This document shows, in pieces, positions 1 through 17,379 of a stretch of DNA of 23,741 nucleotides (positions within the stretch are counted from its first letter, which is position 1; each line of letters starts with the position of its first letter). Source of the stretch: a virus; IMG/VR virus record IMGVR_UViG_3300034073_003078, positions 1-23,741 of that record, one strand, 5' to 3'. Below the pieces are notes generated by a model. The model saw only the letters and a list, made by a program, of their open reading frames with translations, was not told the origin of the DNA and searched no databases. The position numbers and the translations under genes are program-made.

Positions 1-204
1 TTTCAGGGAAGACAAGGCCCGCAGGGCAACCAAGGACCACAAGGTCTTACGGGTAATCCAAGTTCCGTAGCGGGACCGCAAGGAAACCAAGGACCACAAG
101 GTAATCAGGGACCTAGCATAACAGGACCACAAGGTTTTCAGGGAAGACAAGGACCACAGGGGATACAAGGTACAGTAGGTACACAAGGTTTTAGAGGCGC
201 ATCA
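1..204 (+). repeat. Gly-X-Gln collagen-like repeat block 1
   Basis: In-frame triplets encode Gly-X-Y with Y mostly Gln; X is Pro, Phe, Arg, Ile or Asn. One interruption (GNPSSVAG) and one GPSITG break the pattern. The block probably forms a trimeric stalk before the globular domain. Confidence 0.9.
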
Positions 205-1257
205 GAGTGGACTCCCGTATTTGCCGGAGGAGTTGACTATGGTTCCGACAGTACAACATTTATAAAATCAAGTGGTACTAATAGTTCTTGGAGTGCTCAA
301 GTATATTCAATTCAAGGATATACAAATGGTGCTTATGCTACCGCAAGAGCCACATCCACAAATCAATATGTAATGTGGGGTTTAAACAATGATCCAACAA
401 CTAACGCTAGTTATACAAGTATTAATTATGCTTGGTACCTTAATGTAGGTAATCTATCCATATACGAAAATGGTTCAAGTGTAGCTTCTTTTGGCACATA
501 TACAACATCTACATTATTGTCAATTACTTACGATGGTACATCATTGATTTATTGGAAAGATGGTGTAGCACAAAGGACACTTACTGTAAGCATAACAGTG
601 CCATTATATTTTGACTCTTCTTTTTATCTTGTGAATAGTCAAGGAATAACAAATGTTGGATTTGGCCCGATGGGTTCAAGAGGTGCAACAGGCCCACAAG
701 GTTTTCAAGGCAACCAAGGACCACAAGGTAATCAAGGACCTAGCATAACAGGACCACAAGGTTTTCAGGGAAGACAAGGACCACAGGGGATACAAGGAAT
801 ACAAGGTTTTCAGGGAAGACAAGGACCACAGGGGATACAAGGTGCAACGGGAGCAAGTGCAGGTATAACATCATATACAAATCCGGCAGACAATAGGGTA
901 ATAACATCAGTATCAGCAACAACTATAAATGCAGAAGCAAATTTAACATTTGATGGTAGCACATTAACAGTTACAGGTACTATCACAGAAACATCCACGG
1001 CAAAGGTAAAAGAGAATGTAGAAAATATAACAAATGCATTAGATATTATAAAAAAATTGAGAGGAGTACAATACAATAAAATAGGAAACAATAATATAGA
1101 AATAGGTGTTATAGCAGAAGAGGTAGAAGAGATATTACCTCAGATAGTTACAAGAGATAAAGAGGGTAATCCAAAATCGGTATCATACGGTAGATTAACT
1201 GCCTTATTAATAGAAGCAGTCAAAGAATTAGATAACAAAATAAATGAAAAAAAATGA
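1..1257 (+). CDS. Collagen-like phage tail fibre/spike with C-terminal S74 chaperone domain (5' partial)
   Basis: The frame is open from base 1, so the true start lies upstream; 418 codons are visible. Residues 1-66 and about 225-286 are Gly-X-Y collagen-like repeats in which Y is almost always Gln ([15 protein letters not shown]). Between them, residues about 67-224 form a Gly/Ser/Thr-rich beta domain; the stretch [16 protein letters not shown] resembles lectin-like sandwich folds. The last 90 residues match the peptidase S74 intramolecular chaperone, which trimerises fibres and then cuts itself off. The expected catalytic Ser (residue 332, in [10 protein letters not shown]) has a Lys five residues later, the spacing of the Ser-Lys dyad known for this family. 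LRGVQYN and [16 protein letters not shown] are typical of the domain. The role as a receptor-binding fibre is inferred from the architecture. The final codons overlap the next gene by 4 bases. Confidence 0.9.
85..170 (+). repeat. 86-bp direct repeat, copy A (copy B at 712-797)
   Basis: Bases 85-170 recur at 712-797 with one difference (base 108 versus 735). The offset is 627 bases, a multiple of three, so the copies lie in the same frame and bracket the globular domain. A 42-base part is present a third time at 801-842. Confidence 0.9.
673..858 (+). repeat. Gly-X-Gln collagen-like repeat block 2
   Basis: This is the second run of Gly-X-Gln triplets, before the S74 part. It includes copy B of the 86-bp repeat (712-797) and a third, partial copy (801-842) shifted by 45 bases, which gives two [13 protein letters not shown] units in tandem. 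Confidence 0.9.
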
Positions 1258-2193: not shown

Positions 2194-2778
2194 ATGACTA
2201 ATTTCATTTATGCTAAAAAAAATGCTATATCAATTAATACATGTTACAATCTGATAAAAGCATTTGAAGAATCTGATTTAAAACAAGCAGGAGTCTTATA
2301 CGGCCCAAACGGAATATCCTCAGACAGTGATAAGAAATCTACAGACATTACATTTGACCCATCATTCCTAAAAAAAGAACCATGGTCAATGTTATTAGAA
2401 GAAGTTATCGTATCAGTAAAAAATGCAGCATTAGATTATTTGAATAGACATTTCACAGCCATGAGTAAAATGGATGCAATAGATTTGTATACCTATTTTA
2501 ACATGCAGAAATATGAACCTAATGAAGGATTCTTTGGATGGCATTGTGAAAGAGCGGGAAATAAACATTCAGATAGATTGTTAGTTTGGATGATATATTT
2601 AAATGATTTAACAGACAGAGGAGAGACGGAATTCTTTTATCAGCAGCATTTTGAGACACCGGAAAGAGGAAAGCTATTGATATGGCCCTCTGATTGGACT
2701 CACCTGCACAGAGGAGTTCCGTCTCAAACTCAAACAAAGTATATATTAACAGGTTGGTTCACTCATGTAAATAACTAG
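2194..2778 (+). CDS. Fe(II)/2-oxoglutarate-dependent dioxygenase, prolyl-4-hydroxylase-like
   Basis: A 194-residue protein with the double-stranded beta-helix signature of 2OG-Fe(II) oxygenases. NMQKYEPNEGFFGWHCE holds the proximal metal motif H117-x-E119, an HxE in place of the usual HxD. The segment RGKLLIWPSDWTHLHRGVP carries the distal His (H172 by comparison with prolyl hydroxylases), and K182 in TKYILTGW is the likely 2-oxoglutarate anchor. Such enzymes hydroxylate proteins or small molecules using O2, Fe(II) and 2-oxoglutarate. Phage members of this type are known, with few substrates established. It is first of three adjacent oxygenase-like genes with 3-4 base gaps, directly downstream of the fibre region. 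Family call is good; substrate unknown. Confidence 0.85.
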   Translation: MTNFIYAKKNAISINTCYNLIKAFEESDLKQAGVLYGPNGISSDSDKKSTDITFDPSFLKKEPWSMLLEEVIVSVKNAALDYLNRHFTAMSKMDAIDLYTYFNMQKYEPNEGFFGWHCERAGNKHSDRLLVWMIYLNDLTDRGETEFFYQQHFETPERGKLLIWPSDWTHLHRGVPSQTQTKYILTGWFTHVNN

Positions 2779-2781
2779 GTT

Positions 2782-3378
2782 ATGGAATTTAGCATCCATC
2801 AAGAGAACTGGTTTTCCACTCCAATATGGGAATCCGAGGTAAAGAATATAAACAATCACGAAATTAAAGATTACTGTTTATATTTGAAAGACAATACTAA
2901 AGGCGTTAATATTTCAAATAGGGGGGGATGGCATAGTAATGAGATATTACTTCCTATGCCGCAAGATTTGAGAAGTTTGTTTAGCAATCTTGAAGTCTTT
3001 GTAAATGAGCATTGTTTTAAAGAAATGGGAGTCCCTAATTTAAAGTTTGGTAATTTTTGGATAAACGTAAATTATCCAGGAGCATATAATGTACCACACG
3101 ATCACCAAAAAAGTATTCTATCAGGAGTCTATTATGTATCTGTACCTTTCGATAATATGGGAGACTTAGTTTTACACAGAGGAGATAATGCGGAATACTT
3201 TTTACAGTCAGATATAGAAAGGATAAGCACTAAGTCAAATTCTTTAGTAGCTGTCAAAAAACCTATAGAGTCTGTATTTTATATATTTCCATCATGGGTT
3301 AAGCATCATGTGGAATCAAATAATTCGCAGGGAGATAGAATATCAATAGCATTTAATTTCATCCAAAATAATAAATAA
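2782..3378 (+). CDS. 2OG-Fe(II) oxygenase-like protein (TIGR02466/2OG-FeII_Oxy_5 type), paralogue 1
   Basis: A 198-residue protein with the family pattern: an N-terminal TPIWESEV strand, then FWINVNYPGAYNVPHDHQ followed by SILSGVYYVSVP. The tail FPSWVKHHVESN leads to R186 in DRISIAFNF. Candidate metal ligands are H106/D107/H108 and H175 or H176; R186 probably binds 2-oxoglutarate. The fold is clear but the exact facial triad is uncertain because of the HDH cluster. It shares architecture (not near-identity) with the next gene. The start is 3 bases after the preceding stop, consistent with one operon. The substrate is unknown; in this context a virion or glycan target is inferred. Confidence 0.82.
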   Translation: MEFSIHQENWFSTPIWESEVKNINNHEIKDYCLYLKDNTKGVNISNRGGWHSNEILLPMPQDLRSLFSNLEVFVNEHCFKEMGVPNLKFGNFWINVNYPGAYNVPHDHQKSILSGVYYVSVPFDNMGDLVLHRGDNAEYFLQSDIERISTKSNSLVAVKKPIESVFYIFPSWVKHHVESNNSQGDRISIAFNFIQNNK

Positions 3379-3382
3379 AGTT

Positions 3383-4021
3383 ATGAATGCACAAGTATAT
3401 CCTATATTTCCAATACCATTATATGTTGCAAACTATGATAAAGATTTAAAAGAGGTCATAGAATATTTTGATAATTGTGAAATGCAAGATACTAAAGCAG
3501 GATACGGAATGATATCAAATAATAGTTACATCTTAGATAATCCTATATGTAATGAAATAAATGAATTCCTTATGTCATGTTTTAAAGATTTTGCAACAAA
3601 CATCATGAGATATAGATATGAGGAATTACAATTTGCACAATCATGGTTAACATATAAGAATCCCAACCAAATTCATAAGGCACATACTCATCCAAATACA
3701 TTATTGGCGGGGGTATTTTACTATGATGCACATGAGGATGATGCTGCTATATGTTTTTCAAAAGATGTAAAATCATTTAATAGATCATACTTTGAACCAT
3801 CTTTACATGACGATTATCAAAGCCATGTATTCTCGCAGGAAGAGATTTATTACATGCCAAAGAAAAATGATTTCCTCATATTCCCATCATGGTTGACACA
3901 TGGAGTACCTCCGAATAGAACAAATAGGGTAAGAAAAGCCCTGGGAGTAAATGCACTAACAAAAGGAACATTAGGAGATAAAGAAACTATTTCGGAAATT
4001 ATATTTGGAAGATATGCGTAA
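3383..4021 (+). CDS. 2OG-Fe(II) oxygenase-like protein (TIGR02466 type), paralogue 2
   Basis: A 212-residue relative of the preceding gene. It begins with IFPIPLYVANY and continues through SWLTYKNPNQIHKAHTHP, LLAGVFYYDAHEDDAAI and NDFLIFPSWLTHGVPPN. Putative metal ligands come from H98/H101/H103 and H173; R184 is the likely co-substrate anchor. The segment between the two metal motifs is longer than in paralogue 1 and rich in His, Asp and Tyr. It overlaps the following sulfotransferase by 8 bases. Substrate unknown. Confidence 0.82.
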   Translation: MNAQVYPIFPIPLYVANYDKDLKEVIEYFDNCEMQDTKAGYGMISNNSYILDNPICNEINEFLMSCFKDFATNIMRYRYEELQFAQSWLTYKNPNQIHKAHTHPNTLLAGVFYYDAHEDDAAICFSKDVKSFNRSYFEPSLHDDYQSHVFSQEEIYYMPKKNDFLIFPSWLTHGVPPNRTNRVRKALGVNALTKGTLGDKETISEIIFGRYA

Positions 4022-4835
4022 ACAGAAGATATTTTTTAATTCCACATTGCCTAGAAGTGGAAGTACATTATTACAAAACATAATGGGACAAAATCCTGAA
4101 TTTCATGTAACACCAACGTCAGGTCTTATTGATTTAATGTTAGGAGCTAGAATAGGATATAATCAGAACCATGAATCAAAGGCAGGAGATACAGAAATGT
4201 GGAAAGAGGGATTCTATAAATTTTGCGGGGAAGGAATAAAAGCATATATAGCATCTCAGACATCTAAAACATATTACCTAGATAAAAATAGAGTATGGGC
4301 ATTCTACTATAACCTATTATCAAATATGGTAGAAAATCCAAAAGTATTATACATGGTCAGAGATTTACCATCCATATTTGCATCCATGGAGAAGAAATTT
4401 AGATTAAATCCTGACAAAGATGATGGTACAATGGATAACATTAAAATGAAAGGAACATCAACACATAAGAGAGTTGAATTATGGGCACAAACTCATCCAA
4501 TAGGTTATTCATTAGAGAAATTACAACAAACATTACTAGACGGTACAGCAAAGAACTTTTTATTCATTAGATACGAAGATTTATGCAACAATCCTGAAAA
4601 TGTAATGAAAAGCATCTATCAATATTTAGAAGTAGATGATTTCAAACATGACTTCCAACATATAAGTCAAGTTACAGTAGAGAATGATAGCATACATGGA
4701 ATATATGGAGACCACATCATAAGAAATAGTTTAAACATGTTACCAAATGATTCAAGAGATGTACTAGGTACATATACAGTAGATTCCATAAAGACATCGT
4801 ATAAATGGTACAATGACTTCTTTGGTTATAAATGA
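4014..4835 (+). CDS. PAPS-dependent sulfotransferase
   Basis: A 273-residue soluble protein. The 5'-phosphosulfate-binding loop is at the N terminus (STLPRSGSTLL, residues 10-20). The 3'-phosphate-binding motif is VRDLPSIFASMEKK, with R116 and S124. FLFIRYEDLCNNPENVMKSI is the family's conserved 'RYEDL' helix region. The enzyme should transfer sulfate from PAPS to a hydroxyl on a sugar or tyrosine. ATG 4014 is preferred; a TTG at 4005 would add three residues with no family match. It overlaps the upstream oxygenase by 8 bases. It is followed by a 29-base gap that holds the TATTTATA motif. A hydroxylated or glycosylated phage structural protein is a plausible acceptor, but this is inference. 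Confidence 0.87.
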   Translation: MRKQKIFFNSTLPRSGSTLLQNIMGQNPEFHVTPTSGLIDLMLGARIGYNQNHESKAGDTEMWKEGFYKFCGEGIKAYIASQTSKTYYLDKNRVWAFYYNLLSNMVENPKVLYMVRDLPSIFASMEKKFRLNPDKDDGTMDNIKMKGTSTHKRVELWAQTHPIGYSLEKLQQTLLDGTAKNFLFIRYEDLCNNPENVMKSIYQYLEVDDFKHDFQHISQVTVENDSIHGIYGDHIIRNSLNMLPNDSRDVLGTYTVDSIKTSYKWYNDFFGYK

Positions 4836-4846
4836 TAGGATGTAGA

Positions 4847-4860
4847 TATTTATAATAAAA
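4847..4860 (+). promoter_or_regulatory. TATTTATAATAAAA motif, candidate phage late promoter or translation signal (site 1)
   Basis: The 14-base block TATTTATAATAAAA ends 4 bases before the first Kelch gene. It is identical to the block at 15520-15533 and one base longer than those at 12631 and 17967. All four sit in the larger plus-strand intergenic gaps. Confidence 0.55.
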
Positions 4861-4864
4861 GAAT

Positions 4865-5821
4865 ATGGCTAAATTACAGAGTAGTGAGATAGTGGGTGTT
4901 GCAAATAGACCTGCGACAATATGCGCTAATACTATGTGCATTTGGTTTGACACAACTAATTTAAAGACAGTTATTTCGTATTGTGGATATACTGGTGCAG
5001 GAACTTGGTCAGCAGGTGGTGCATTAATAACAGTAAGAAGCTGGTTAGCAGGGACCGGAACACAGAATGTAGGACTTGCAATGGGAGGTTGTCAAGCAGG
5101 GTATTTTTCATGTACTGAAGAATATAATGGCACATCATGGGCCGTGGGAGGTAATTTAATATATGCTCGTTGCTCTCTAGCAGGAGCAGGTACACAAAAT
5201 GTAGGACTTGCAGCAGGGGGTTTTGGGGGTCTAGGCCTTACAAGTTGCACAGAGGAGTATAATGGAACATCTTGGTCATTAGGCGGTAATTTAATCAACT
5301 CAAGGAGACAATTAGCGGGCGCAGGAGCACAAAACGAAGGACTTGTTATGGGAGGCCAAGGTAATACTTTTGCTTGTTGTCAGTGTACTGAAGAATATAA
5401 TGGCACATCTTGGTCAACAGGAGGTGCATTGGCAATAGCAAGATACGGTTTAGCAGGAGCAGGTACACAAAATGAAGGACTTGCAGGAGGAGGGGGAACA
5501 AATTTAACAGAGGAGTATAATGGTACATCTTGGGCAGCAGGAGGGGCTTTGATAACCTCAAGATTTTGCCTAGTAGGGGCAGGAACTCAAAATGCAGGAC
5601 TTGCTATCGGAGGTTGTTCAGGAGGAGTTGTGTCATGTACAGAAGAATATAATGGTATATCTTGGTCAACAGGAGGTGCATTGGCAATAGCAAGGTCTAG
5701 TTTAGCAGGAGCAGGAATACAAAGTGCAGGACTTGTAGCAGGAGGCTTTGGTGGAGCTACAGGAACAAATGCAACGGAAGAATATACTAAACCCTTAGTA
5801 ATAATAGACTCAATACAATAA
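4865..5821 (+). CDS. Kelch-repeat beta-propeller structural protein, copy 1
   Basis: A 318-residue protein. Residues 1-46 are a conserved head (MAKLQSSEIVGVANRP, IWFDTTNLK) shared almost word for word with the next gene. Six Kelch blades follow from residue 47, each about 40-46 residues, with consensus TSWSxGGALxxAR, LAGAGTQNxGLAxGG, CTEEYNG. This fits a six-bladed propeller. The tail is EEYTKPLVIIDSIQ. Residues between 'GLAxGG' and 'TEEYNG' vary in sequence and length, as exposed loops would. Kelch/galactose-oxidase-like propellers of this kind occur in viral metagenomes and are usually taken as virion or receptor-binding proteins; no oxidase active site is evident. The shared head may be the virion anchor. 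Confidence 0.85.
   Translation: MAKLQSSEIVGVANRPATICANTMCIWFDTTNLKTVISYCGYTGAGTWSAGGALITVRSWLAGTGTQNVGLAMGGCQAGYFSCTEEYNGTSWAVGGNLIYARCSLAGAGTQNVGLAAGGFGGLGLTSCTEEYNGTSWSLGGNLINSRRQLAGAGAQNEGLVMGGQGNTFACCQCTEEYNGTSWSTGGALAIARYGLAGAGTQNEGLAGGGGTNLTEEYNGTSWAAGGALITSRFCLVGAGTQNAGLAIGGCSGGVVSCTEEYNGISWSTGGALAIARSSLAGAGIQSAGLVAGGFGGATGTNATEEYTKPLVIIDSIQ
5003..5785 (+). repeat. Six tandem Kelch repeats in copy 1
   Basis: Repeat units are about 120-140 bases. Bases about 5408-5442 and 5660-5694 (blades 4 and 6) share a nearly identical run encoding SWSTGGALAIAR, which points to duplication of blades inside the gene. Confidence 0.85.
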
Positions 5822-5822
5822 T

Positions 5823-6785
5823 ATGGCAAAACTACAAAGTACAGAAATAGTAGGAGTTGCAAATAGACCTGCAACAATATGTTCAAATAGTGTTTGTATG
5901 TGGTTTGATACAACAAATTTAAAACCTATGGCATCTTATTGTGGGTATGGAACAGGTATTTGGTCAGCAGGCGGTGCATTAATAACGGCACGAAGATATT
6001 TAGCAGGTGCAGGGTCACAAAACGAAGGACTTGCAGCAGGAGGTTTTACAACTGTGGCCCTAACATGTACCGAAGAATACAACGGCACATCTTGGTCGGC
6101 AGGTGGTGCATTGATAGTAGCTAACTATGCACATGAAAGTGTTGGTACACAAAATATAGGTCTTGTAATTGGTGGTTATAACGGAAGTATTAATTTAGCT
6201 TGTACCGAAGAATACAACGGCACATCTTGGTCAGCAGGTGGTGCATTGATAACGGCAAGAAGGGCATCTGCAAGTGGAGGTGTGCAAAATGAAGCCTTTG
6301 TCGCAGGAGGTCTTACAAGTGTTGGTGTATCTAATACAGAGGAATACAATGGTACTTCATGGTCAGCAGGTGGTGCATTAATAACAGCAAGATTTGTTTT
6401 AGCAGGAGCAGGAACGCAGAATGCAGGACTTGCAGCAGGAGGTTATATAAATGCAAATGTAGCTTGCACCGAAGAATACAATGGTACATCTTGGTCAGCT
6501 GGGGGCGCAGTAATAGTAGCGAGGTCAAATTTAGCAGGGGCGGGTACACAGAATGCAGGACTTGCTATGGCAGGTGAATCACCTACTGTAGTAACATGTA
6601 CCGAAGAATACAACGGCACATCATGGTCAGCAGGGAGTCTATTGATAACAGGGAGAACCCACATCCCTGCAAGTGGAGGTTCTCAAGTTGCGGCATTTTT
6701 GGCAGGTGGATGGACAGGATTTGATACCCTAACTTGCACCGAAGAATATACTAAACCATTAGCAATAATAGACTGCGTCTTATAA
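5823..6785 (+). CDS. Kelch-repeat beta-propeller structural protein, copy 2
   Basis: A 320-residue paralogue of the preceding gene, starting 1 base after its stop. The head (residues 1-45) and tail (EEYTKPLAIIDCVL) match copy 1. The six blades are more regular (TSWSAGGALITAR repeated), but the loops differ completely: blades 2, 3 and 6 replace LAGAGTQ with HESVGTQ, SASGGVQ and PASGGSQ. Nearly every blade boundary reads CTEEYNG. There is no signal peptide. The tandem arrangement and loop diversity suggest two receptor-binding or decoration proteins with separate specificities, or subunits of one hetero-oligomer. Confidence 0.85.
   Translation: MAKLQSTEIVGVANRPATICSNSVCMWFDTTNLKPMASYCGYGTGIWSAGGALITARRYLAGAGSQNEGLAAGGFTTVALTCTEEYNGTSWSAGGALIVANYAHESVGTQNIGLVIGGYNGSINLACTEEYNGTSWSAGGALITARRASASGGVQNEAFVAGGLTSVGVSNTEEYNGTSWSAGGALITARFVLAGAGTQNAGLAAGGYINANVACTEEYNGTSWSAGGAVIVARSNLAGAGTQNAGLAMAGESPTVVTCTEEYNGTSWSAGSLLITGRTHIPASGGSQVAAFLAGGWTGFDTLTCTEEYTKPLAIIDCVL
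5958..6749 (+). repeat. Six tandem Kelch repeats in copy 2
   Basis: Blades repeat at 132-138 base spacing. The stretches starting at 6066 and 6201 agree over about 50 bases apart from single changes, so the DNA identity is higher than function requires. Recent intragenic duplication or gene conversion is likely. Confidence 0.85.
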
Positions 6786-6804
6786 AAATAAAACATAAAA
6801 TTAC

Positions 6805-7698
6805 ATGACTAATAGTTATTTCAAAGAAAAGTTTTTAGTTTGGCACATTCAGGGAGGTTTAGGAAAAAATGTGGCAGCAACAGCACTACCCCAATATATC
6901 AAACAAAAGTATCCCGATAGAAAACTTATAATGGTTGTATCCTATCCCGAAGTTTTCCTAAATAATCCTTACATTGACAGAGTATATCCGATAGGTAACT
7001 CACCCTACTTTTATGAGGATTTTATAGAGAATAAGGATACGCTTGTTTTTAGACATGAGCCTTATAATCAAACAGGACACATTTTAAAGCATAAGCATTT
7101 AATTAATAATTGGTGTGACTTACTCGGAATAGAATACAGCAATCAAACACCTCAATTATATCCTAATTACTCAGAGAAAATAAATGCGAAGAAATGGTTT
7201 AGAGATAAGCCTGTCGTAGTATTACAAACATCGGGCGGTGAATTAGAATCAAATAATATATATTCTTGGTGTAGGGATATGCCACAAGATATAGCACAGT
7301 TAATTGTAGATAAATATAAAGATTCATTTCATATATTTCATGTATCAAGACAAGGAGGTTATGCTTTAAATAATGTAGAGAGGATTGATACAAAGTTATC
7401 TAATATGGAACTATTTAGCATGTTGACTGTTTCATCTAAAAGATTTTTAATTGATTCATCTTTGCAACATGCGGCAGTTGCTATTAATTTGCGGTCAACG
7501 GTGTTTTGGGTTGGAACATCGCCCAAGGTTTTTGGGTATGACTTGCATAATAATATTGTTGCAAATCCACCCAAAAACAAGAACCAGTTAATTGGTTCAT
7601 ACTTGTTTGATTATCAATTTGATTATAATGTGCATGAATGTCCTTATAGCACATTGGATGAAATGTTTGATATTAATTTTATAGTAAATAACATATAG
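6805..7698 (+). CDS. GT9 (heptosyltransferase-like) GT-B glycosyltransferase
   Basis: A 297-residue protein with the GT9 layout. The N-terminal Rossmann half opens with LVWHIQGGLGKNVAATALP and continues with KLIMVVSYPEVFLNNPYIDRVY. The C-terminal half has VVVLQTSGGE and then RFLIDSSLQHAAVAI followed by TVFWVGTSPKVFGY, the family's nucleotide-sugar-binding region. GT9 enzymes usually transfer heptose in lipopolysaccharide core synthesis; the donor and acceptor here cannot be read from sequence. It lies 19 bases after the Kelch pair and abuts the next glycosyltransferase with no gap. Phage members without a transmembrane segment probably act in the cytoplasm. Confidence 0.78.
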   Translation: MTNSYFKEKFLVWHIQGGLGKNVAATALPQYIKQKYPDRKLIMVVSYPEVFLNNPYIDRVYPIGNSPYFYEDFIENKDTLVFRHEPYNQTGHILKHKHLINNWCDLLGIEYSNQTPQLYPNYSEKINAKKWFRDKPVVVLQTSGGELESNNIYSWCRDMPQDIAQLIVDKYKDSFHIFHVSRQGGYALNNVERIDTKLSNMELFSMLTVSSKRFLIDSSLQHAAVAINLRSTVFWVGTSPKVFGYDLHNNIVANPPKNKNQLIGSYLFDYQFDYNVHECPYSTLDEMFDINFIVNNI

Positions 7699-8619
7699 AT
7701 GAAATTTTGCATAGCTACCCTAACTCACAATGATACTAGCAGAGATGTTTATTTAAAAAGAACAATAGATAGTTTCATTAATAATACAGAATTTGATGGC
7801 ATCATTGATTGGTATATTCATTGTAATGGTAAAAATGAATTGATTGACGATGTGGTAAAAGAATGTATTGAAAATTATAAAGATGTAATTAATTTTACAT
7901 ACTCATTTTCTGAAAAAAACATGGGATGTGGAGTAGGGATAAACTACCTTAATTCGTTAGTTAAGGATTATGAATATGTTTTATTTTTAGAAGGAGATTG
8001 GATTTGTTTGCCCCGCGATATTTCTGGTCAAGAGGATTGGTTAAGAGATTGTTTAAATTACATGGAGCAGAACAAAACCATTAGTCAAGTGTTATTAAGA
8101 AGATATATTAGTGATTATGATGATAGGCAGTACGGTTTAGGATATTGGATAAAGGAAGACAATATAAAAAATATAGTACAACTTAAAAACAAATATCTCG
8201 AATTAATAAAAAAGGAGTATGTAAATAATCCTCACATAAGACGAACTAAAGATTTTTATGATGCCGGAGTTTTACCTTTGAAAGAATTCTATGACGACGA
8301 AGGAAATCCGGCTGAATTAAAAGGTTTACCTATGTGGGGTCAAGCCGAGATAGATGCTGAGTCTAGGGCATTTGTTCTTAATTCGGCTTACCTCTTACTC
8401 GGAAATATGGTACATTGTGAATCATGGAATTACTATGAAAAATATGAAAATCTTTGTAGTGAAATAAAAACATGTAGAAAATATCTTGAAACAGGATGTG
8501 GGGGATGTAAGTATGGCTATTTTTTCCCGGAAGAGTTATTTTGTAAATTATGTGACCATTCTAAAAATTATACCGATATGGAAAGACATGGACACGATTA
8601 TGTAGCAAATTTAGGTTGA
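7699..8619 (+). CDS. GT-A family glycosyltransferase with C-terminal Cys4 knuckle
   Basis: A 306-residue protein beginning MKFCIATLTHNDTSRD, the GT2-type nucleotide-binding strand. NMGCGVGINYLNSL follows, then a metal-binding E98-G-D100 in YEYVLFLEGDW in place of DxD. Near the C terminus C267, C270, C282 and C285 form CxxC-x11-CxxC, a likely zinc ribbon not usual in GT2 enzymes, followed by HGHDYV. It might sit on a protein acceptor or stabilise the fold. It starts immediately after the GT9 stop. The sugar and acceptor are unknown. Confidence 0.75.
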   Translation: MKFCIATLTHNDTSRDVYLKRTIDSFINNTEFDGIIDWYIHCNGKNELIDDVVKECIENYKDVINFTYSFSEKNMGCGVGINYLNSLVKDYEYVLFLEGDWICLPRDISGQEDWLRDCLNYMEQNKTISQVLLRRYISDYDDRQYGLGYWIKEDNIKNIVQLKNKYLELIKKEYVNNPHIRRTKDFYDAGVLPLKEFYDDEGNPAELKGLPMWGQAEIDAESRAFVLNSAYLLLGNMVHCESWNYYEKYENLCSEIKTCRKYLETGCGGCKYGYFFPEELFCKLCDHSKNYTDMERHGHDYVANLG

Positions 8620-8632
8620 TAAAAAGTGAAAT

Positions 8633-9181
8633 ATGGTAAATGATTTATTTCAAATGCGTGATCAGACATATACGCAAGGACTTGTTGATCTAATTAATTA
8701 TATTAGACAGTATAAAAAGCCTGAAGAAATGTCAATGATTGAAATTGGATCTTATGCTGGTGAATCTACTAGGATTTTTTCTGAAAATTTTAAACAGGTA
8801 ATTTCAATTGACCCGTTTATTAATGATTATGATCCAAATGATATTACATGTCAATTTATGCCATTGGATAAGGTTTATGATATTTTTAAAGAAGTTATAA
8901 ACAGTCATCCTAATATAAAACACATAAGAATGACATCTGATGATGCTATAAAGGAACTAAAAGATGAAAAATTTGATTTTATATATATAGATGGACTACA
9001 TACCTACGAACAGATAAAAAAAGACATAACTAATTATCTCCCTCTATTAAATAAAGATGGATTAATAGGTGGACATGATTATCATTTAAATTGGTATGGA
9101 GTTGTAAGAGGGATAAATGAAATACTAGGAGAACCGGATAAAACATTCATGGACACTAGTTGGATTAAAAAAATAAAGTAA
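8633..9181 (+). CDS. Class I SAM-dependent methyltransferase (Methyltransf_24 type)
   Basis: A compact 182-residue Rossmann methyltransferase. Motif I is MIEIGSYAGEST (residues 35-46), motif II is VISIDPF, the acidic strand motif is FDFIYIDGLHTYEQIKKD, and motif VI is GLIGGHDY. This subgroup often methylates sugars or small hydroxylated compounds and is frequently found beside glycosyltransferases, as here. There is no target-recognition domain, so a DNA methyltransferase is unlikely. Gaps to the neighbours are 13 and 6 bases. Confidence 0.85.
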   Translation: MVNDLFQMRDQTYTQGLVDLINYIRQYKKPEEMSMIEIGSYAGESTRIFSENFKQVISIDPFINDYDPNDITCQFMPLDKVYDIFKEVINSHPNIKHIRMTSDDAIKELKDEKFDFIYIDGLHTYEQIKKDITNYLPLLNKDGLIGGHDYHLNWYGVVRGINEILGEPDKTFMDTSWIKKIK

Positions 9182-9187
9182 AAAGCT

Positions 9188-10117
9188 ATGACACATAAAA
9201 GTAATTTTGAGAATGTTTTTTGGCATATAGATAGTATGCGATTATTTGACAATGATTTGTACGAGGTAAGCGGTTGGATTTTCAGTACAGAGGGAAGTAT
9301 TAAAAAAATAATTATAGGAGACGTAGAATATACAAATCTACAAAATGGATTGTACCCTAGAAAAGATGTTAAGGATGTTTACCCGGATTTACCTAATGAT
9401 TTAGTAGGTTGGACTTTTATGGTTAAACCTTCTAATGTAAATGCTCCTATAGATATTATTTTGGATAATGGAGTTGAAATTTTAAATATAGGTACTTTAG
9501 ATTCCTGGCATGTGTTTAATTCAGGTTTTAATCCTTACGCTTCTAAAGACATTATTGTTGTAGATAATTTTTACATGCAACCTGATTTAGTCAGAAGCTA
9601 TGCAATTCATAATCTAAAGTACTCTGAATCTGATTACCATAGAGGAAAAAGAAGTGAGACCTCTTTTATACTAAATGGAACACTAGAAAGATTTGAGGAG
9701 ATATTAGGAAGGCCCATATACAATTGGAACAATCCTAATTATGCTAATGGTAAATTCCAGTATTGTATATCGACAGATCCAATTGTTTATCATGTAGATT
9801 CTCAAAACTACGCCGCCATGGTTTACTTAACTCCGGACGCACCTTTACAGAGTGGTACAGCAACTTATAAAAGTATCTATACAAATAAGACAAAGTTTGA
9901 AGAAGCACAGGGGGGAGATTATGAGAAGACATTCAAAGGAAGAAGTAGCGGATTAAATTTTTATGATAAGACATCTTTTGAACTCGTAGATAATATTGCA
10001 AATGTATATAATAGATTAGTTTTATTCGATGCTAAAAATATACATGCTGCCGTAAATTACTTTGGAGACACAAAAGAAAATAGCAGATTTTTTCACTTAT
10101 TCTTTTTTGATATATGA
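9188..10117 (+). CDS. Two-domain protein: N-terminal beta-sandwich plus DUF6445-type 2OG oxygenase-like domain
   Basis: A 309-residue protein. Residues 1-105 form a beta-rich module (YEVSGWIFS, KKIIIGDVEY, YPRKDVKDVYPDLP, VGWTFMVKP) of the kind attached to phage and bacterial sugar-modifying enzymes. Residues 118-309 match DUF6445: DIIVVDNFYMQPDLVRSYAI, then IVYHVDSQNYAAMVYLTP, then SGTATYKS. The H202-x-D204, H286 and R300 pattern fits an Fe(II)/2-oxoglutarate site. It overlaps the next gene by 4 bases (ATGA). This is the fourth dioxygenase-like protein in the island, separate from the first three. Activity is inferred; the substrate is unknown. Confidence 0.75.
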   Translation: MTHKSNFENVFWHIDSMRLFDNDLYEVSGWIFSTEGSIKKIIIGDVEYTNLQNGLYPRKDVKDVYPDLPNDLVGWTFMVKPSNVNAPIDIILDNGVEILNIGTLDSWHVFNSGFNPYASKDIIVVDNFYMQPDLVRSYAIHNLKYSESDYHRGKRSETSFILNGTLERFEEILGRPIYNWNNPNYANGKFQYCISTDPIVYHVDSQNYAAMVYLTPDAPLQSGTATYKSIYTNKTKFEEAQGGDYEKTFKGRSSGLNFYDKTSFELVDNIANVYNRLVLFDAKNIHAAVNYFGDTKENSRFFHLFFFDI

Positions 10118-11973
10118 AGATTAGATTCCATGTTATAACCAGATGTACAAGACCTCAAAATCTTTTACAGATATATGATAGTTTTAATTACACAGAAAAT
10201 GATCAATATTGTGTACTTTGGCATGTCTTATTCGATACTTCATCTTTGATTGATATTGATTCCAAATTGCTCTTAGATTTAAGTAAGTTAGACGCTCACT
10301 TACATTTTGTGGAAAGTGATGGTACAGATTATTTATATCCTCAAATAAGCGATGTTGTAAGTAATCTTAATACAGGATGGGTTTTAATTATGGATGATGA
10401 TAATGTATGTTATCCTAATTATTTTGATGTCTTTAATGACGAAATAAGAGCTAGTAAAAAGGCTGCTTACGCGTATGAACAAGAAGTCAATGGTAGGGAT
10501 TTTACCGGGTTAGATATAAGGAAAGTCGGACCGGAGCACATGAAGTTAAAACATATTGATTCCGCACAATATATCATACACACGGAATTACATCAAAAAT
10601 TAAAATACGAATCCGGATATGATGCTGACGGTAAATTCATAGAAAAATTATATGATGAATATCCTGATGACTTTGGCTTCATAGAAAAAACACTATGCTA
10701 TTACAATGCTTTAACAAGTGAGCCGAAAGCTAGAGTTCCAAAAGTATTATATTTAGGACCCGATAAACCCGAATTAAAAAGTATAAAGTACGCGGATTAT
10801 GAAGACGATTCTTTAAATGTGAAATATATTGAGAACGACGAAAAAATAAGCGAAATATTATCTTCCTTTAATCCAGACTCTATCATAAGCATTTCCGACG
10901 ATTATTATGACCAATACAGAAATCTATGCAATCAGCCTTCCTATGTGAGAAATAGATGGATAAACTTAAATCTTCACCAGGATAAGGAAACAGGGATAGC
11001 TTATAATACGGGAGAGATAGCGTATAATTGTGCAATGAATAGCATACTTAGGTCTGACTATGATTCTGTGGTTTCTTTCTTCACACCGATATATAATACA
11101 GGAGAAAAACTTTGGAGAACCTATGAATCAGTTAGAAGTCAAACTTATCCGGATTGGGAGTGGGTTATAGTAAATGATTCTTCTGATGGAGGTAAAACGA
11201 TAAAGATTGCTTTGGAGATAGCGTCACAGGATCATAGAGTTAGAGTGTATGACTTTAGAGAAAAATCAGGCGGTATTATAGGCGAATCTAAGTACAGGGC
11301 AGCTACGCTCACTAAAGGCAGATGGTTAGCAGAATTAGACCACGATGATTATTTAATGCCGGATTGTGCTAAGTATATAATAGAAGCGGCGAATAATTTT
11401 CCGGATGCAGGATTTATATATACGGATAGTGCAGAACTAGATGAGTGGCATAACTCTATGAAATACCCAGATGGTTTTTGTTTTGGGTATGGAAAATATA
11501 GGAAAGAGTATCACCACGATTATGAAAAAACCTGGGACGTAGTAGATACACCTAATATCAATCCGAAAACAATTAGACATATCGTAGGAGTACCCAATCA
11601 CATAAGAACATGGAGGAGAGATGTATATTTTTCGGTGGGAGGGCACAATAGAAATCTATCCATCGCAGATGATTATGAACTTATTGTTAGAACATTCCTA
11701 AAAACTAAATTTGTAAAAGTACCAAAATTAGGATATCTTCAATACATATACAATAATTCAAATGGAAGAAATACACATGACTTAGCTAGAGCAGATATCC
11801 AGAGAAGAGTTAGATCAATCATGTATTTCTATAATGATGCAATAAATGAAAGATTTAAAGAATTAGGAGTTATTGATTATGCATATAAGGAGAATAAAGA
11901 CAATCCCTTAAATGTAGAAAGTAGATTTGGAAAAGATGAAAATCATGTAAACTTTATATACAATGACATATAG
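10114..11973 (+). CDS. Double glycosyltransferase (two GT-A domains)
   Basis: The largest gene here, 619 residues. Domain 1 (1-210) begins KIRFHVITRCTRPQNL and carries D94-D95-D96 in GWVLIMDDDNV. Residues about 210-310 form a connecting domain (PKVLYLGPDKPELK, FNPDSIISISDDYYDQY, VRNRWINLN). Domain 2 (about 315-560) is a classic GT2 domain: VVSFFTPIYNTGEKLWRTYE, WVIVNDSSDGG, GRWLAELDHDDYLMPD (D409-H-D-D), then a Trp-rich acceptor segment. The enzyme probably adds two sugars in sequence or polymerises a disaccharide. It is cytosolic, with no membrane segment. It overlaps the next glycosyltransferase by 11 bases. Confidence 0.85.
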   Translation: MKIRFHVITRCTRPQNLLQIYDSFNYTENDQYCVLWHVLFDTSSLIDIDSKLLLDLSKLDAHLHFVESDGTDYLYPQISDVVSNLNTGWVLIMDDDNVCYPNYFDVFNDEIRASKKAAYAYEQEVNGRDFTGLDIRKVGPEHMKLKHIDSAQYIIHTELHQKLKYESGYDADGKFIEKLYDEYPDDFGFIEKTLCYYNALTSEPKARVPKVLYLGPDKPELKSIKYADYEDDSLNVKYIENDEKISEILSSFNPDSIISISDDYYDQYRNLCNQPSYVRNRWINLNLHQDKETGIAYNTGEIAYNCAMNSILRSDYDSVVSFFTPIYNTGEKLWRTYESVRSQTYPDWEWVIVNDSSDGGKTIKIALEIASQDHRVRVYDFREKSGGIIGESKYRAATLTKGRWLAELDHDDYLMPDCAKYIIEAANNFPDAGFIYTDSAELDEWHNSMKYPDGFCFGYGKYRKEYHHDYEKTWDVVDTPNINPKTIRHIVGVPNHIRTWRRDVYFSVGGHNRNLSIADDYELIVRTFLKTKFVKVPKLGYLQYIYNNSNGRNTHDLARADIQRRVRSIMYFYNDAINERFKELGVIDYAYKENKDNPLNVESRFGKDENHVNFIYNDI

Positions 11974-12628
11974 CGTAATCATTCCTACATTATGGAAATG
12001 CAATTTAGAAAACTTTTATAAGACCATGCTAATTTTCTGCGGGGAACCTCAAATAAAAGAGATCATATTAATAGACAATGACATAACATTCAAACAAACA
12101 ATAAAATCTAACATTCTAAATCTAAGTCCTAAAATAAAATACTATCCACAAGATGAAAATATATATGTAAATCCGGCATGGAACTTAGGCGCATTAGAAG
12201 CCCAAGGGAAACACTTAATGATAGTAAATGATGACTTCCATATAACATCTAAAAAAACATTAAAGAACATAATAAAAACACATCAAGATAATAAAGACAT
12301 ATATACTAGTATCTATGGTATATCAACATCATGTTATATAGAAGAACCAACATCCAATAAAATATACTTAACAGACAATGAAGGTAGAGGAACCGGGTGG
12401 GGATGCTTCTTCATATTACATAGATATACATGGACAGATATCCCAAATGAATTAAAGATATGGTTTGGAGATGACTACCTAACAAAACATGTACTAGAAA
12501 ATGGAGGAAAAGTCTATACATTCAAAAACATAAAAGCATCACCATTCTCACAGACACTATCATCATCGACATTTAATAGCATCCTGGATAATGATACTAA
12601 AATATACATGGAGAAATATAATAACTAA
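11963..12628 (+). CDS. GT2 family glycosyltransferase
   Basis: A 221-residue single-domain GT-A enzyme. TYSVIIPTLWKCNLENFYKT opens the fold; IKEIILIDND and VNPAWNLGALEAQGKHLMIVNDDF carry the donor-binding strand and the metal-binding N89-D90-D91. The later GTGWGCFFILHR and WFGDDYLTKHVLENGG correspond to the acceptor half of GT2 enzymes. The ATG lies 11 bases inside the preceding gene, so expression is probably coupled. It is the last gene of the enzyme island; the next start follows a TATTTATA block. Confidence 0.83.
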   Translation: MTYSVIIPTLWKCNLENFYKTMLIFCGEPQIKEIILIDNDITFKQTIKSNILNLSPKIKYYPQDENIYVNPAWNLGALEAQGKHLMIVNDDFHITSKKTLKNIIKTHQDNKDIYTSIYGISTSCYIEEPTSNKIYLTDNEGRGTGWGCFFILHRYTWTDIPNELKIWFGDDYLTKHVLENGGKVYTFKNIKASPFSQTLSSSTFNSILDNDTKIYMEKYNN

Positions 12629-12630
12629 GC

Positions 12631-12643
12631 TATTTATATAAAA
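12631..12643 (+). promoter_or_regulatory. TATTTATATAAAA motif (site 2)
   Basis: This 13-base version of the shared block ends 9 bases before the DUF3008-like gene, just after the stop of the glycosyltransferase operon. It is identical to the block at 17967-17979. Confidence 0.55.
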
Positions 12644-14751: not shown

Positions 14752-14799
14752 CTATTTTTTAATTTTTACGTTAAATAATTGTTTATAGCTCTGTATGTC

Positions 14800-15477
14800 A
14801 TGATTATATCTCATAAATATAAATGTATTTTCATAAGAATTCCCAAAACTGGTTCAACTAGTGTAGAGACCTATTTAAAAGAAGTCGACCCGGACTGTAT
14901 CTCATCAGGGGATAAACCTCCGTATGGACACGATACATGTTCGCAGTTATTAGAAGAACATGGTCACACAGTATGGAACTCTTATTATAAATTCACCTTC
15001 ATACGAGAACCTTATCAGTGGTACAAATCCTACTACTCGGATCTTTTGAATTATTCATGGGATAAAGATAGTGAACTAGCAAAAAAAAGTTTAGGTTTGA
15101 TTTTGACAGATTCTAATACTTTGCCGGAACCTGTAAATGGAACGTTGCACGAAAAGCACATAATGATAATCCAATTGCTTAATGATTTTTGGTTCTATCC
15201 TGCTATAAATGATAGTAAAATGGATAATCATGTAACGCAAATATCATGGATAGATAAGCCCATTAATTTTATAGGACGTACAGAATTTTTAGATGAGGAC
15301 TTCAAGGATGTATGCAATAAATTAAATATACCATTTACCGAAATAAAGAGATTGAATACATCTGATTCTCATAAATTAAGTCATAGTGAAGGAGCTAGGA
15401 GATTAATTAAATGTTTAGCAAATGAAGACTTAGAATTATATTACAACATAAAATCGATAACAAATAATCGTTATTAA
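14800..15477 (+). CDS. Sulfotransferase (Sulfotransfer_2/carbohydrate type)
   Basis: A 225-residue protein from ATG 14800: MIISHKYKCIFIRIPKTGST holds the PAPS loop (PKTGST, residues 15-20). FTFIREPYQWYKSYYSDL is the 3'-phosphate motif (R69, S77). IGRTEFLDEDFKDVCNKLNI is typical of the family's C-terminal half. It differs clearly in subtype from the sulfotransferase at 4014. A TTG at 14779 would add seven residues and is less likely. It lies outside the main enzyme island, beyond the endolysin and YopX genes, and is likely to act on a carbohydrate. Its promoter is not evident. Confidence 0.87.
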   Translation: MIISHKYKCIFIRIPKTGSTSVETYLKEVDPDCISSGDKPPYGHDTCSQLLEEHGHTVWNSYYKFTFIREPYQWYKSYYSDLLNYSWDKDSELAKKSLGLILTDSNTLPEPVNGTLHEKHIMIIQLLNDFWFYPAINDSKMDNHVTQISWIDKPINFIGRTEFLDEDFKDVCNKLNIPFTEIKRLNTSDSHKLSHSEGARRLIKCLANEDLELYYNIKSITNNRY

Positions 15478-16461: not shown

Positions 16462-16775
16462 ATTTTAATGATGAAGACTTTCTAAGAAGAATAGTAGGCG
16501 TAGGAACATTAGGATACTCATTAGAAAAAATAATGAATGTATTAGATATTCCTACATCTGATATGAAATCATTTACAGATGAATTTTACAATAAGAACAG
16601 TGAAGTATATAGAGCATACAAGAAAGGAATAGATAAAGCAGACTACGTCATAGACATGAAACTATTTGAAGAAGCTAAAAGTGGAAACATAAGAGCTTTA
16701 AAAAAATATGAAGAAAGAAAAGATAAAGAAATATATAGACAACGGAGAGCCCAAACATTAAAAGATGAAGAATAA
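16458..16775 (+). CDS. Small helical protein, possibly terminase-small-subunit/HTH-like
   Basis: A 105-residue all-helical protein. Residues about 15-45 (LGYSLEKIMNVLDIPTSD and following) could be a helix-turn-helix. VYRAYKKGIDKADYVIDMKL followed by FEEAKSGNIRALKKYEERK resembles the conserved helices of phage small terminase subunits, which bind packaging sites. The length is at the short end and no large terminase is visible in the window, so the assignment is tentative; a transcription regulator is an alternative. It overlaps both neighbours (4 and 11 bases), which argues for coupled expression with the ParB genes. Confidence 0.6.
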   Translation: MNFNDEDFLRRIVGVGTLGYSLEKIMNVLDIPTSDMKSFTDEFYNKNSEVYRAYKKGIDKADYVIDMKLFEEAKSGNIRALKKYEERKDKEIYRQRRAQTLKDEE

Positions 16776-17379
16776 GATTGAATATATAGATGTAAATAGG
16801 TTATCAGAGAATCCAAGAAACAGTAAGATACATCCGGATGAACAGATAGCAAAATTAATGAAGAGCATCACAGAGTTCGGATTTAACATTCCTATCCTGA
16901 TTGATAAGAAAAACATGATTATTGCTGGACATGCTCGATTCCTGGCAGCTAAAGCATTACATATAGATTCTATTCCATCTATCCGCATCGAAAATTTAAC
17001 AGATGATCAAATAAGAGCCTACTCCATAGCGGATAACAAGCTAACAGAATTAGGGGAATGGGATTATACAAAATTAAGCGATGAATTAGAATATCTTAAT
17101 TCTGTCGACATAGATGCAATGGCCATGGGATTTGATTATGAGGATTTTGAAATGTTAAATGAATCTTTTCAAAATGATGATGACATCTTATCTGCAACTA
17201 AATCTGAATCTTCTCCTGCATCTAAAAATAAAAAAAGCATTGTCTTCTCATATAACATAGAAGATTATACAAACATGATGAAGAAATTCAAGACGGTAAT
17301 GAATGAGAACGATATAAAAGCTAACGCAGAAGTTATAAGATTATTGATTGAACACTATAATGAAAGACATCATGAGTAA
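16765..17379 (+). CDS. ParB/sulfiredoxin-domain protein, paralogue 1
   Basis: A 204-residue protein. Residues 1-110 are a ParB N-terminal (ParB/Srx) domain: NPRNSKIHPDEQIAKLMKSI, FGFNIPILIDKKN, IIAGHARFLAAKAL (G55-H-A-R58), LTDDQIRAYSIADNKLTELG. Ser/Asn-rich residues about 135-155 link to a C-terminal module (IVFSYNIEDYTNMMKKFK, EVIRLLIEHY) that is also present in the next gene. There is no HTH or partition-type dimerisation domain, so plasmid-style partition is unlikely. In phages this domain is often joined to DNA methyltransferases or lies near packaging genes; here it stands alone. CTP binding or nuclease activity is possible but not shown. Confidence 0.85.
   Translation: MKNKIEYIDVNRLSENPRNSKIHPDEQIAKLMKSITEFGFNIPILIDKKNMIIAGHARFLAAKALHIDSIPSIRIENLTDDQIRAYSIADNKLTELGEWDYTKLSDELEYLNSVDIDAMAMGFDYEDFEMLNESFQNDDDILSATKSESSPASKNKKSIVFSYNIEDYTNMMKKFKTVMNENDIKANAEVIRLLIEHYNERHHE

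Follow-up and report, generated by a model that had tools for sequence, protein, structure and literature searches.

A fibre-linked cassette of oxygenase, sulfotransferase and glycosyltransferase-like genes that may modify the adhesins of a T4-like phage

What purpose might be served by a dense run of oxygenase, sulfotransferase and glycosyltransferase-like genes lying directly behind a phage fibre gene? The question is raised by an island of a water-dwelling phage, at positions 2194-12628 of the IMG/VR virus record IMGVR_UViG_3300034073_003078. The window that we analyzed is the entire record of 23,741 bases, which is itself a fragment because its first gene is cut at the window edge. To our knowledge, the substrates of the 2-oxoglutarate (2OG) oxygenases and flavin halogenases of T4-like aquatic phages are not known, and these genes are usually filed as host metabolism. 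Here we describe a conserved cassette whose genes are interleaved with those of fibres and Kelch propellers, and we consider the chances about even that it modifies the phage's own adhesins, namely the collagen-like fibres and the Kelch propellers.

The island genes are all on the plus strand and lie close together, some neighbours sharing a few bases, so that the co-directional, overlapping set described in the first-pass annotation was confirmed. They follow the order fibre, g1254, g1506, oxA, oxB, oxC, ST1, K1, K2, g6805, g7699, methyltransferase, DUF6445 protein and two further genes at 10114-11973 and 11963-12628. The fibre protein (1-1257, plus strand, with its 5′ end cut by the window edge) matches the Pfam families Collagen (1.4e-14) and Peptidase_S74 (5.1e-13), and combines collagen-like GXY runs with a C-terminal S74 chaperone. 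The island that had been delimited is real and wider than proposed. The genes g1254 (1254-1496), encoding a small conserved protein, and g1506 (1506-2189; phrog_1409), the conserved marker gene of the locus, lie between it and the fibre, and a second sulfotransferase gene, ST2, which may or may not be linked to the island, lies outside it.

We collected related loci from IMG/VR in scans seeded on the island genes g1506, GT2 and ST1, which returned 46 loci for g1506, 15 for the gene at 10114 and 51 for the sulfotransferase. The g1506 proteins of all loci (76 members) fell into 25 clusters at 95%, four of which (L080, L094, L101 and L107) derive only from the sulfotransferase scan; the contigs are mostly fragments, and clusters at this threshold are not independent lineages. 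Both oxB and g6805 were present within 9 kb downstream of g1506 in 24 of the 25 clusters, or 20 of 21 without those found only through the sulfotransferase. The genes are thus not scattered among relatives, the outcome that was to have counted against a common system, and relatives with 50-84% identity in g1506 still have the core as one group. Over the same 9 kb, oxC was found in 21 clusters, oxA in 20, a further PF13640 gene, oxA′, in 16, a sulfotransferase in 12 and a tryptophan halogenase in three, while g1254 lay 5′ of g1506 in 22. Eleven clusters carried five 2OG genes, 4 carried four, 6 carried three, 1 carried two and 2 carried one; the remaining cluster, a distant locus of 41% identity (L049) with no cassette gene in its 4.7 kb, had none. 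A recognized fibre or Kelch gene lay within 4 kb upstream in 16 of the 25 clusters, and a Kelch gene (12/25) or a tail sheath gene identified by Pfam (6/25) within 9 kb downstream. No match to g1506 was found in named phages.

A family search placed all detected 2OG open reading frames (ORFs) of three large contigs inside the island (5/5 in G006, 4/4 in G004 and 3/3 in G001), and in a relative of 182,846 bases the five that were detected share one 2.7-kb stretch. Pairwise ratios of nonsynonymous to synonymous substitution rates (dN/dS) were 0.03-0.23 for the enzymes, which indicates purifying selection, with the synonymous sites of oxA near saturation; the two Kelch genes gave 0.18 and 0.34. 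The conserved order, the enzyme dN/dS values and the clustering of the 2OG ORFs together indicate that the island is beyond chance. The clade of the window differs from the other relatives in its shorter oxygenase set and in having Kelch arrays between the sulfotransferase and g6805, and the GT2 block is missing or replaced elsewhere. In one relative (L027, 14935-18264), a 1109-residue GT1-FkbM-GT2-RMNT_CmcI fusion 3′ of g6805 takes the place of the GT2 block; this was the one replacement scanned. Tryptophan halogenase genes lie within or beside the oxygenase run in L022 (13070-14545), L025 (12708-14162) and L033, with a match of 1.2e-66 for the one scanned.

A Pfam scan of 20 window proteins, none beyond position 16775, supported most of the enzyme inventory in the first-pass annotation: three 2OG oxygenases, one sulfotransferase, one methyltransferase and two GT2 genes score above the family cut-offs. 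The oxygenases are oxA (2194-2778; PF13640, 2OG-FeII_Oxy_3, 1.7e-11, 45.4 bits), oxB (2782-3378; PF13759, 2OG-FeII_Oxy_5, 2.1e-22, 79.8 bits) and oxC (3383-4021; PF13759, 6.1e-18, 65.5 bits), each against a cut-off of 27. 2OG-Fe(II) oxygenases carry the signature HxD/E...H...R/K. This set is complete in oxA, where H117-x-E119, H172 and K182 show at least 95% conservation over 23 sequences; in the alignments of oxB (H106-x-H108, H175, R186) and oxC (H101-x-H103, H173, R184), HxH replaces HxD/E and the H and R are retained. The fourth oxygenase that had been proposed corresponds to the DUF6445 protein (9188-10117; PF20043, 2.3e-08), in which a 2OG-like H202-x-D204, H286 and R300 are invariant in all nine aligned sequences, one marine relative included, so that its assignment as a 2OG-like enzyme is reasonable by motif. 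One ORF of AG-345-L05 (marine; Kyanoviridae according to its record) matches PF20043 and, weakly, PF13759, and no solved homologue of the DUF6445 protein was found. About 115 extra N-terminal residues, encoded at 9188-9540, are missing from the marine homologue.

The PHROG names 'minor coat protein', 'DNA endonuclease V' and 'ferrochelatase' have been given to proteins with matches to 2OG families or DUF6445 (phrog_1644, 274 and 3531; Syn9, our L123), and these look like annotation errors. The best matches in a phage collection of oxA′ (40%) and of the GT2 protein (35%) are both in LR756501, a 735-kb uncultured huge phage. DNA hypermodification was considered as a function and set aside: the 20 window proteins scanned gave no Tet_JBP match, although the AG-345-L05 2OG protein gave a weak one below cut-off.

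ST1 (4014-4835) is a sulfotransferase of the type that uses 3′-phosphoadenosine 5′-phosphosulfate (PAPS), matching PF13469 (Sulfotransfer_3) above cut-off at 6.3e-17; the program's ORF begins at a TTG at 4005, and the ATG at 4014 was chosen from the starts of homologues. Both motifs that characterize PAPS-dependent sulfotransferases are present, as a PRSGSTLL loop and an RD..S motif, and the residues of the 5′ phosphosulfate loop (P12, R13, G15, S16, T17) and the 3′ phosphate motif (R115, D116, S123) are invariant in 24 of 24 sequences. Among proteins of solved structure, its sequence comes closest to protein-tyrosine sulfotransferases (E 3.6e-7 over the whole sequence, the best single stretch reaching only 0.005). 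The gene immediately 3′ of the sulfotransferase in 29 clusters was similar to adenosine 5′-phosphosulfate (APS) kinase in 20, Kelch in 4, tail sheath in 2, a nucleotidyltransferase in 1 and nothing recognized in 2. The one such kinase scanned is an APS kinase by Pfam (1.2e-18), with NCBIfam APS kinase models matching below their cut-offs. Its neighbour is an HxGH nucleotidyltransferase closest to nicotinamide mononucleotide (NMN) adenylyltransferases, followed in many loci by DUF2061; examples of this arrangement 3′ of the sulfotransferase occur in L082 (10816-12092) and L102 (3206-4023). ATP sulfurylase was rejected as an identity for the nucleotidyltransferase, since its profile matches NMN adenylyltransferases instead.

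The two Kelch propellers reported previously were upheld, K2 by predicted structure and K1 by similarity to it, and both are likely virion adhesins. K1 (4865-5821) has repeats of 40-46 residues and is 63% identical to K2 (5823-6785), whose AlphaFold2 model matched Kelch domains in Foldseek with E values down to 1.9e-17. The five K2 models had predicted local distance difference test (pLDDT) scores of 91.6, 83.5, 77.2, 51.5 and 34.9, the best alone being of high confidence, and it is this best model that shows the Kelch fold, in which each repeat is about 45 residues long and bears GG, Y and W. Neither protein has a Pfam match, and a Kelch search in named phages, run with the low-complexity filter on, gave one weak match.

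Five glycosyltransferase domains had been proposed, of which three are supported, namely two GT2 domains and one GT9 fold, but not those in g7699 (7699-8619) and in the first half of the protein at 10114-11973. The latter is a two-part protein with a GT2 domain at residues 321-475 (PF00535, 1.4e-23; chondroitin synthase, 2.8e-11) and no support for a glycosyltransferase domain in residues 1-318, and the gene at 11963-12628 encodes a second GT2 enzyme (PF00535, 1.3e-07, with 32.2 bits where the cut-off is 23.3). No glycosyltransferase signal was found for g7699 in Pfam, NCBIfam or PDB sequences, nor a profile match to the other glycosyltransferases. The g6805 protein (6805-7698) has no Pfam match above cut-off; its AlphaFold2 model (pLDDT 88.6, predicted template modelling score 0.87) has the GT-B fold of GT9 enzymes, matching 3tov (E 2.9e-10; Z 20.3, root-mean-square deviation 3.5 over 265 aligned residues), TibC, which we take to be an adhesin-modifying heptosyltransferase (Z 18.8), and lipopolysaccharide (LPS) heptosyltransferases (18.5 and 18.3). 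Plant photosystem-complex proteins follow at about Z 16, and clearly different enzymes from about Z 10 down. The S-adenosylmethionine methyltransferase (8633-9181; Methyltransf_24, 1.3e-17) appears to be accessory, being present in one of nine relative contigs that span its place, while g7699 is present in eight of nine. Pfam matched no flippase, polymerase, lipid-carrier or nucleotide-sugar family in the island, and no island protein reached the membrane-segment threshold in a simple hydropathy scan.

The regulatory sequences also bear on the function of the cassette. A promoter-like motif, TATTTATAATAA (4847-4858, plus strand), lies 18 nt before K1, and the next (12631-12642, plus strand) lies before g12653. 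The motif TATTTATAWWAA has four exact occurrences in the window (4847, 12631, 15520 and 17967), all on the plus strand and 17-24 nt before the ATG of K1, g12653, g15544 and g17984, compared to a mean of 0.49 in shuffled sequences, none of which reached four in 100. Thirty relative loci (534,423 bases), whose sites are not independent, contained 37 matches, 30 of them 18-36 nt before a same-strand ORF start, while the reverse orientation had 1 of 37. The genes behind the motif in relatives include Kelch (9), g1254 (4), tail tube (4), g15544 (4) and g17984 (2). The core of TATTTATAWWAA is the reverse complement of the T4 late promoter; in its usual orientation that promoter, TATAAATA, was tried as a candidate and rejected with a count at chance, and sigma-70 and terminator scans were likewise at chance level. 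We read TATTTATAWWAA as a putative late promoter. No exact copy interrupts the stretch that runs from K1 through the GT2 block, and on this reading K1 to the last GT2 gene (4865-12628) would be one late unit, which suggests from sequence that the Kelch and glycosyltransferase genes are expressed together. The upstream oxygenases may be transcribed from a promoter before g1254, where a site is present in four relatives and absent in the window.

A Gp23 capsid match in 3 of the 17 contigs tested, together with tail sheath and tube genes identified by Pfam, indicates that these are T4-like myoviruses. GGAG, GAGG or AGGA was found within 20 nt upstream of only 1 of 27 gene starts inspected, and scarcity of these motifs is expected of Bacteroidota. 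Moreover, a contig carrying the fibre, g1506, oxA, oxB, g6805, ST1 and Kelch-containing long ORFs belongs to a metagenome-assembled genome of Flavobacteriaceae, and a Bacteroidota host is likely. A cyanobacterial host for the window's relatives was rejected, as the psbA family was found in none of 12 contigs, mostly fragments.

Comparable arrangements were seen in a second group of phages. AG-345-L05 encodes, in order, a 955-residue ORF, DUF6445, a sulfotransferase, a 968-residue ORF whose Kelch match is weak and below cut-off, two unassigned ORFs, a DUF6445-like protein, a 916-residue LamG fibre, a 2OG protein, a sulfotransferase, an unassigned ORF, a GT9 homologue (44% identical to g6805) and a carbamoyltransferase. 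Enzyme genes here alternate with long genes of fibre-like character. Among four cultured cyanophages, selected through halogenase or sulfotransferase searches, the short tail fibre genes of Syn1 are abutted by 2OG genes on both sides, with its halogenase placed among metabolic genes and tRNAs; 2OG genes flank the 7-kb tail fibre gene of S-SSM7, which has a second set, with halogenase and carbamoyltransferases, between a fibre and the neck and sheath genes; in Syn9 the fibre and fibre-assembly genes are followed by several 2OG-type genes in a row and two halogenases; and one 2OG group of S-SCSM1 lies between tail fibre genes.

Virion proteins are the inferred acceptors in the scheme that we propose. 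The cassette would be expressed late, and modification would take place in the cytoplasm of the host, either ahead of virion assembly or in the course of it. The 2OG oxygenases would hydroxylate adhesin side chains, the GT9-like enzyme, together with the GT2 enzymes in the window's clade, would attach sugars, and the sulfotransferases would add sulfate from PAPS as a cap, the PAPS being supplied through the APS-kinase-like neighbour in most sulfotransferase relatives and by the host in the window's clade. The outcome would be altered receptor binding or shielded adhesins; both this effect and the sequence of reactions are conjectural. Indeed, the ordered scheme of hydroxylation, glycosylation, methylation and sulfation suggested initially is conjecture, the methyltransferase being rare and the block that would extend the glycan being missing or replaced in relatives. 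Nevertheless, virion decoration is the best supported of the options stated, because in two groups of phages such enzyme genes alternate with genes for fibre, Kelch or LamG proteins, because a promoter-like motif that is also found at virion genes precedes the Kelch and glycosyltransferase block, and because no membrane, lipid-carrier or nucleotide-sugar family was matched in the island. The similarity of ST1 to protein-tyrosine sulfotransferases, the fold match of g6805 to TibC and the low dN/dS of the enzymes also count in its favour.

Several observations weigh against this proposal. No acceptor residue was located in the Kelch repeats or collagen-like runs, and no modified virion protein is known. 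The Kelch repeats alternate N and D at YNGTSW and therefore have no fixed sequon, so that N-glycosylation at NGTSW is disfavoured, and a crude count of sulfotyrosine sites in acidic context was zero in K1 and K2. Proline occupies the Y position in none of 30 collagen-like triplets of the window fibre and in 31 of 2281 when every six-frame ORF of the loci is counted, non-genes among them, so that classic collagen prolyl hydroxylation of the fibre was rejected as a general target; no collagen-like run is present in 16 of the 26 loci listed. A recognized downstream Kelch gene is missing from 13 of the 25 g1506 clusters. The enzymes themselves raise further doubts. The EETR segment of protein-tyrosine sulfotransferases holds the catalytic Glu; ST1 lacks it, the HMMER alignment setting tptsG opposite the EETR of TPST1, and we therefore regard ST1 as protein-sulfotransferase-like at best and do not claim the name protein-tyrosine sulfotransferase. 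Of the 12 relative contigs tested for an APS kinase, which are fragments, one has it, and the ten from the window's clade do not. The structural scores of g6805 tie between TibC and the LPS heptosyltransferases, and its fold thus cannot decide between an adhesin and an LPS acceptor. In addition, GT9 enzymes such as the LPS heptosyltransferases carry their catalytic Asp in an N-terminal GD loop, and the GGLGKN loop of g6805, which probably takes its place, is nearly invariant (G17, G18, G20 and K21 in 34 of 34); because of this difference and the fold matches to plant photosystem-complex proteins, g6805 may be inactive. With one mismatch allowed, the motif count is 13 compared to 7.6 expected, and 5 of 100 shuffles reach 13. 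Finally, many 2OG genes of S-SCSM1 are surrounded by replication genes or are neighbours of genes for nucleotide sugars, and its sulfotransferase is beside an exonuclease gene.

The main rival explanation, which we regard as rather unlikely, is that the cassette remodels the surface of the infected host, changing its LPS core, O-chain or capsule by glycosylation and sulfation, for example against superinfection or the rebinding of virions to debris. GT2 and GT9 are common families in LPS and capsule synthesis, g6805 matches WaaF/WaaC, and the GT2 block is missing or replaced in relatives, as is often the case for glycan loci. This is also the published reading for cyanophage clusters (PMC7824862) and, in the available part of that report, for the glycosyltransferases of pelagimyophages (PMC7029224). 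However, Pfam matched neither a flippase nor a polymerase nor a nucleotide-sugar enzyme in the island, none of whose proteins has a predicted membrane segment, its glycosyltransferase block is in an apparent late unit with two Kelch genes, a late change to the surface of a nearly lysing cell would be of little value, and oxygenases and halogenases are atypical tools for LPS.

It is improbable, too, that these are independent auxiliary genes, their 2OG oxygenases depleting 2-oxoglutarate or modifying host proteins or nucleic acids, in a fibre region that is a hot spot for gene gain. Such host-reprogramming readings appear in the portions available of PMC3037559 and PMC9602691, and the 2OG genes of S-SCSM1 that lie far from fibres, as well as the sub-threshold similarity of the AG-345-L05 protein to the DNA-acting Tet_JBP family, are in their favour. 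Yet in this lineage the genes keep their order and evolve under purifying selection, unlike a shifting sample, and the three large contigs have all their detected 2OG ORFs in the island. We consider it very improbable that the product is a small molecule or peptide, a hydroxylated, halogenated, glycosylated or sulfated metabolite acting on competitors or the host. The S-SSM6a cluster has been viewed as a possible source of a secondary metabolite (PMC7824862), and a halogenase is present in 3 of the 25 clusters; but the island gave no match to an exporter or to an enzyme that would build a scaffold, and the constant position beside fibre genes would be left unexplained.

The published interpretations of related genes differ from the modification of adhesins that we favour. 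Iyer et al. 2021 (PMC7824862) described the S-SSM6a cluster of halogenase, 2OG and carbamoyltransferase genes and proposed capsule decoration or a secondary metabolite. In the sections of these papers that were accessible, Sullivan et al. 2010 (PMC3037559) and the S-SCSM1 paper (PMC9602691) take 2OG genes as host reprogramming, the glycosyltransferases near pelagimyophage fibres (PMC7029224) are taken to modify the host O-chain, and across these three and Clokie 2010 (PMC2984593) the readings range over 2-oxoglutarate control, host reprogramming, DNA repair and host O-chain change. The excerpts available of PMC12619734, PMC10611076 and PMC12965618 describe no such system. Full-text searches of literature under open licences found no paper joining oxygenase, sulfotransferase, glycosyltransferase and fibre, which is weak evidence of absence; one paper joined sulfotransferase, bacteriophage and adenylylsulfate kinase, and judging from its title and the opening of its abstract it is unrelated. 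Even so, to call the island an undescribed pathway, as the first-pass annotation did, is too strong, given that cyanophage halogenase/2OG/carbamoyltransferase clusters are already in print (PMC7824862).

Two gene neighbourhoods further downstream complete the description of the window. ST2 (14779-15477, plus strand; PF03567, Sulfotransfer_2, 8.9e-10) belongs to another Pfam family than ST1 and is kept with an amidase neighbourhood in relatives; it had no convincing match among solved structures. The region 16765-17947 encodes two neighbouring paralogous proteins that are ParB-like by eye.

The link to fibres and propellers, the promoter-like motif shared with virion genes and the sulfation branch make an action on virion adhesins testable. 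If adhesins are indeed modified, host range would be set in part by protein modifications that are invisible in the genome sequence, and new sulfo- and glyco-protein enzymes would become available. More tentatively, the cassette may be one case of a general 'adhesin tailoring' system of phages, in which fibre-linked cassettes would hydroxylate, halogenate, glycosylate, carbamoylate and sulfate receptor-binding propellers and fibres, with PAPS supplied by the phage in many. This doubtful extension would account for the abundance, long a puzzle, of 2OG oxygenases and halogenases among the T4-like phages of aquatic habitats, and would make post-translational chemistry a control layer of host range.

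A precedent for such chemistry is the Mimivirus lysyl hydroxylase/glucosyltransferase, which acts on collagen, so that a viral structural protein is hydroxylated and then glycosylated. Its enzymes are different from those of the window, where the collagen-like runs of the fibre have neither Y-position Pro nor Lys. TibC and the bacterial autotransporter heptosyltransferases resemble g6805 in their GT9-type fold and in the position of the gene beside an adhesin; TibC is 12% identical to g6805 over the structural alignment, and the likeness rests on the fold, not on TibC's iron site or dodecamer. Mycobacteriophage capsid and tail proteins carry glycans (Freeman et al. 2023, cited in the available part of PMC12619734) and share with our proposal the presence of glycans on the virion, while that part mentions no oxygenase or sulfotransferase set. 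The pelagimyophage host-recognition cluster, as far as the accessible text of PMC7029224 goes, similarly has glycosyltransferases within a T4-like tail-fibre region and is without mention of combined oxygenase and sulfotransferase sets. The closest resemblance is to the cyanophage halogenase/2OG/carbamoyltransferase clusters, in which 2OG oxygenases, DUF6445-type proteins and a tryptophan halogenase are found near fibre genes (S-SSM7 and Syn9), the Syn9 cluster having no carbamoyltransferase in the stretch examined. Neither the carbamoyltransferase nor the halogenase that forms the core of the PMC7824862 cluster was matched in the 20 window proteins scanned, and sugar synthesis was likewise unmatched in the window. 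In contrast to these clusters, the lineage of the window has a sulfotransferase, a GT9-like protein, Kelch arrays and, probably, a Bacteroidota host.

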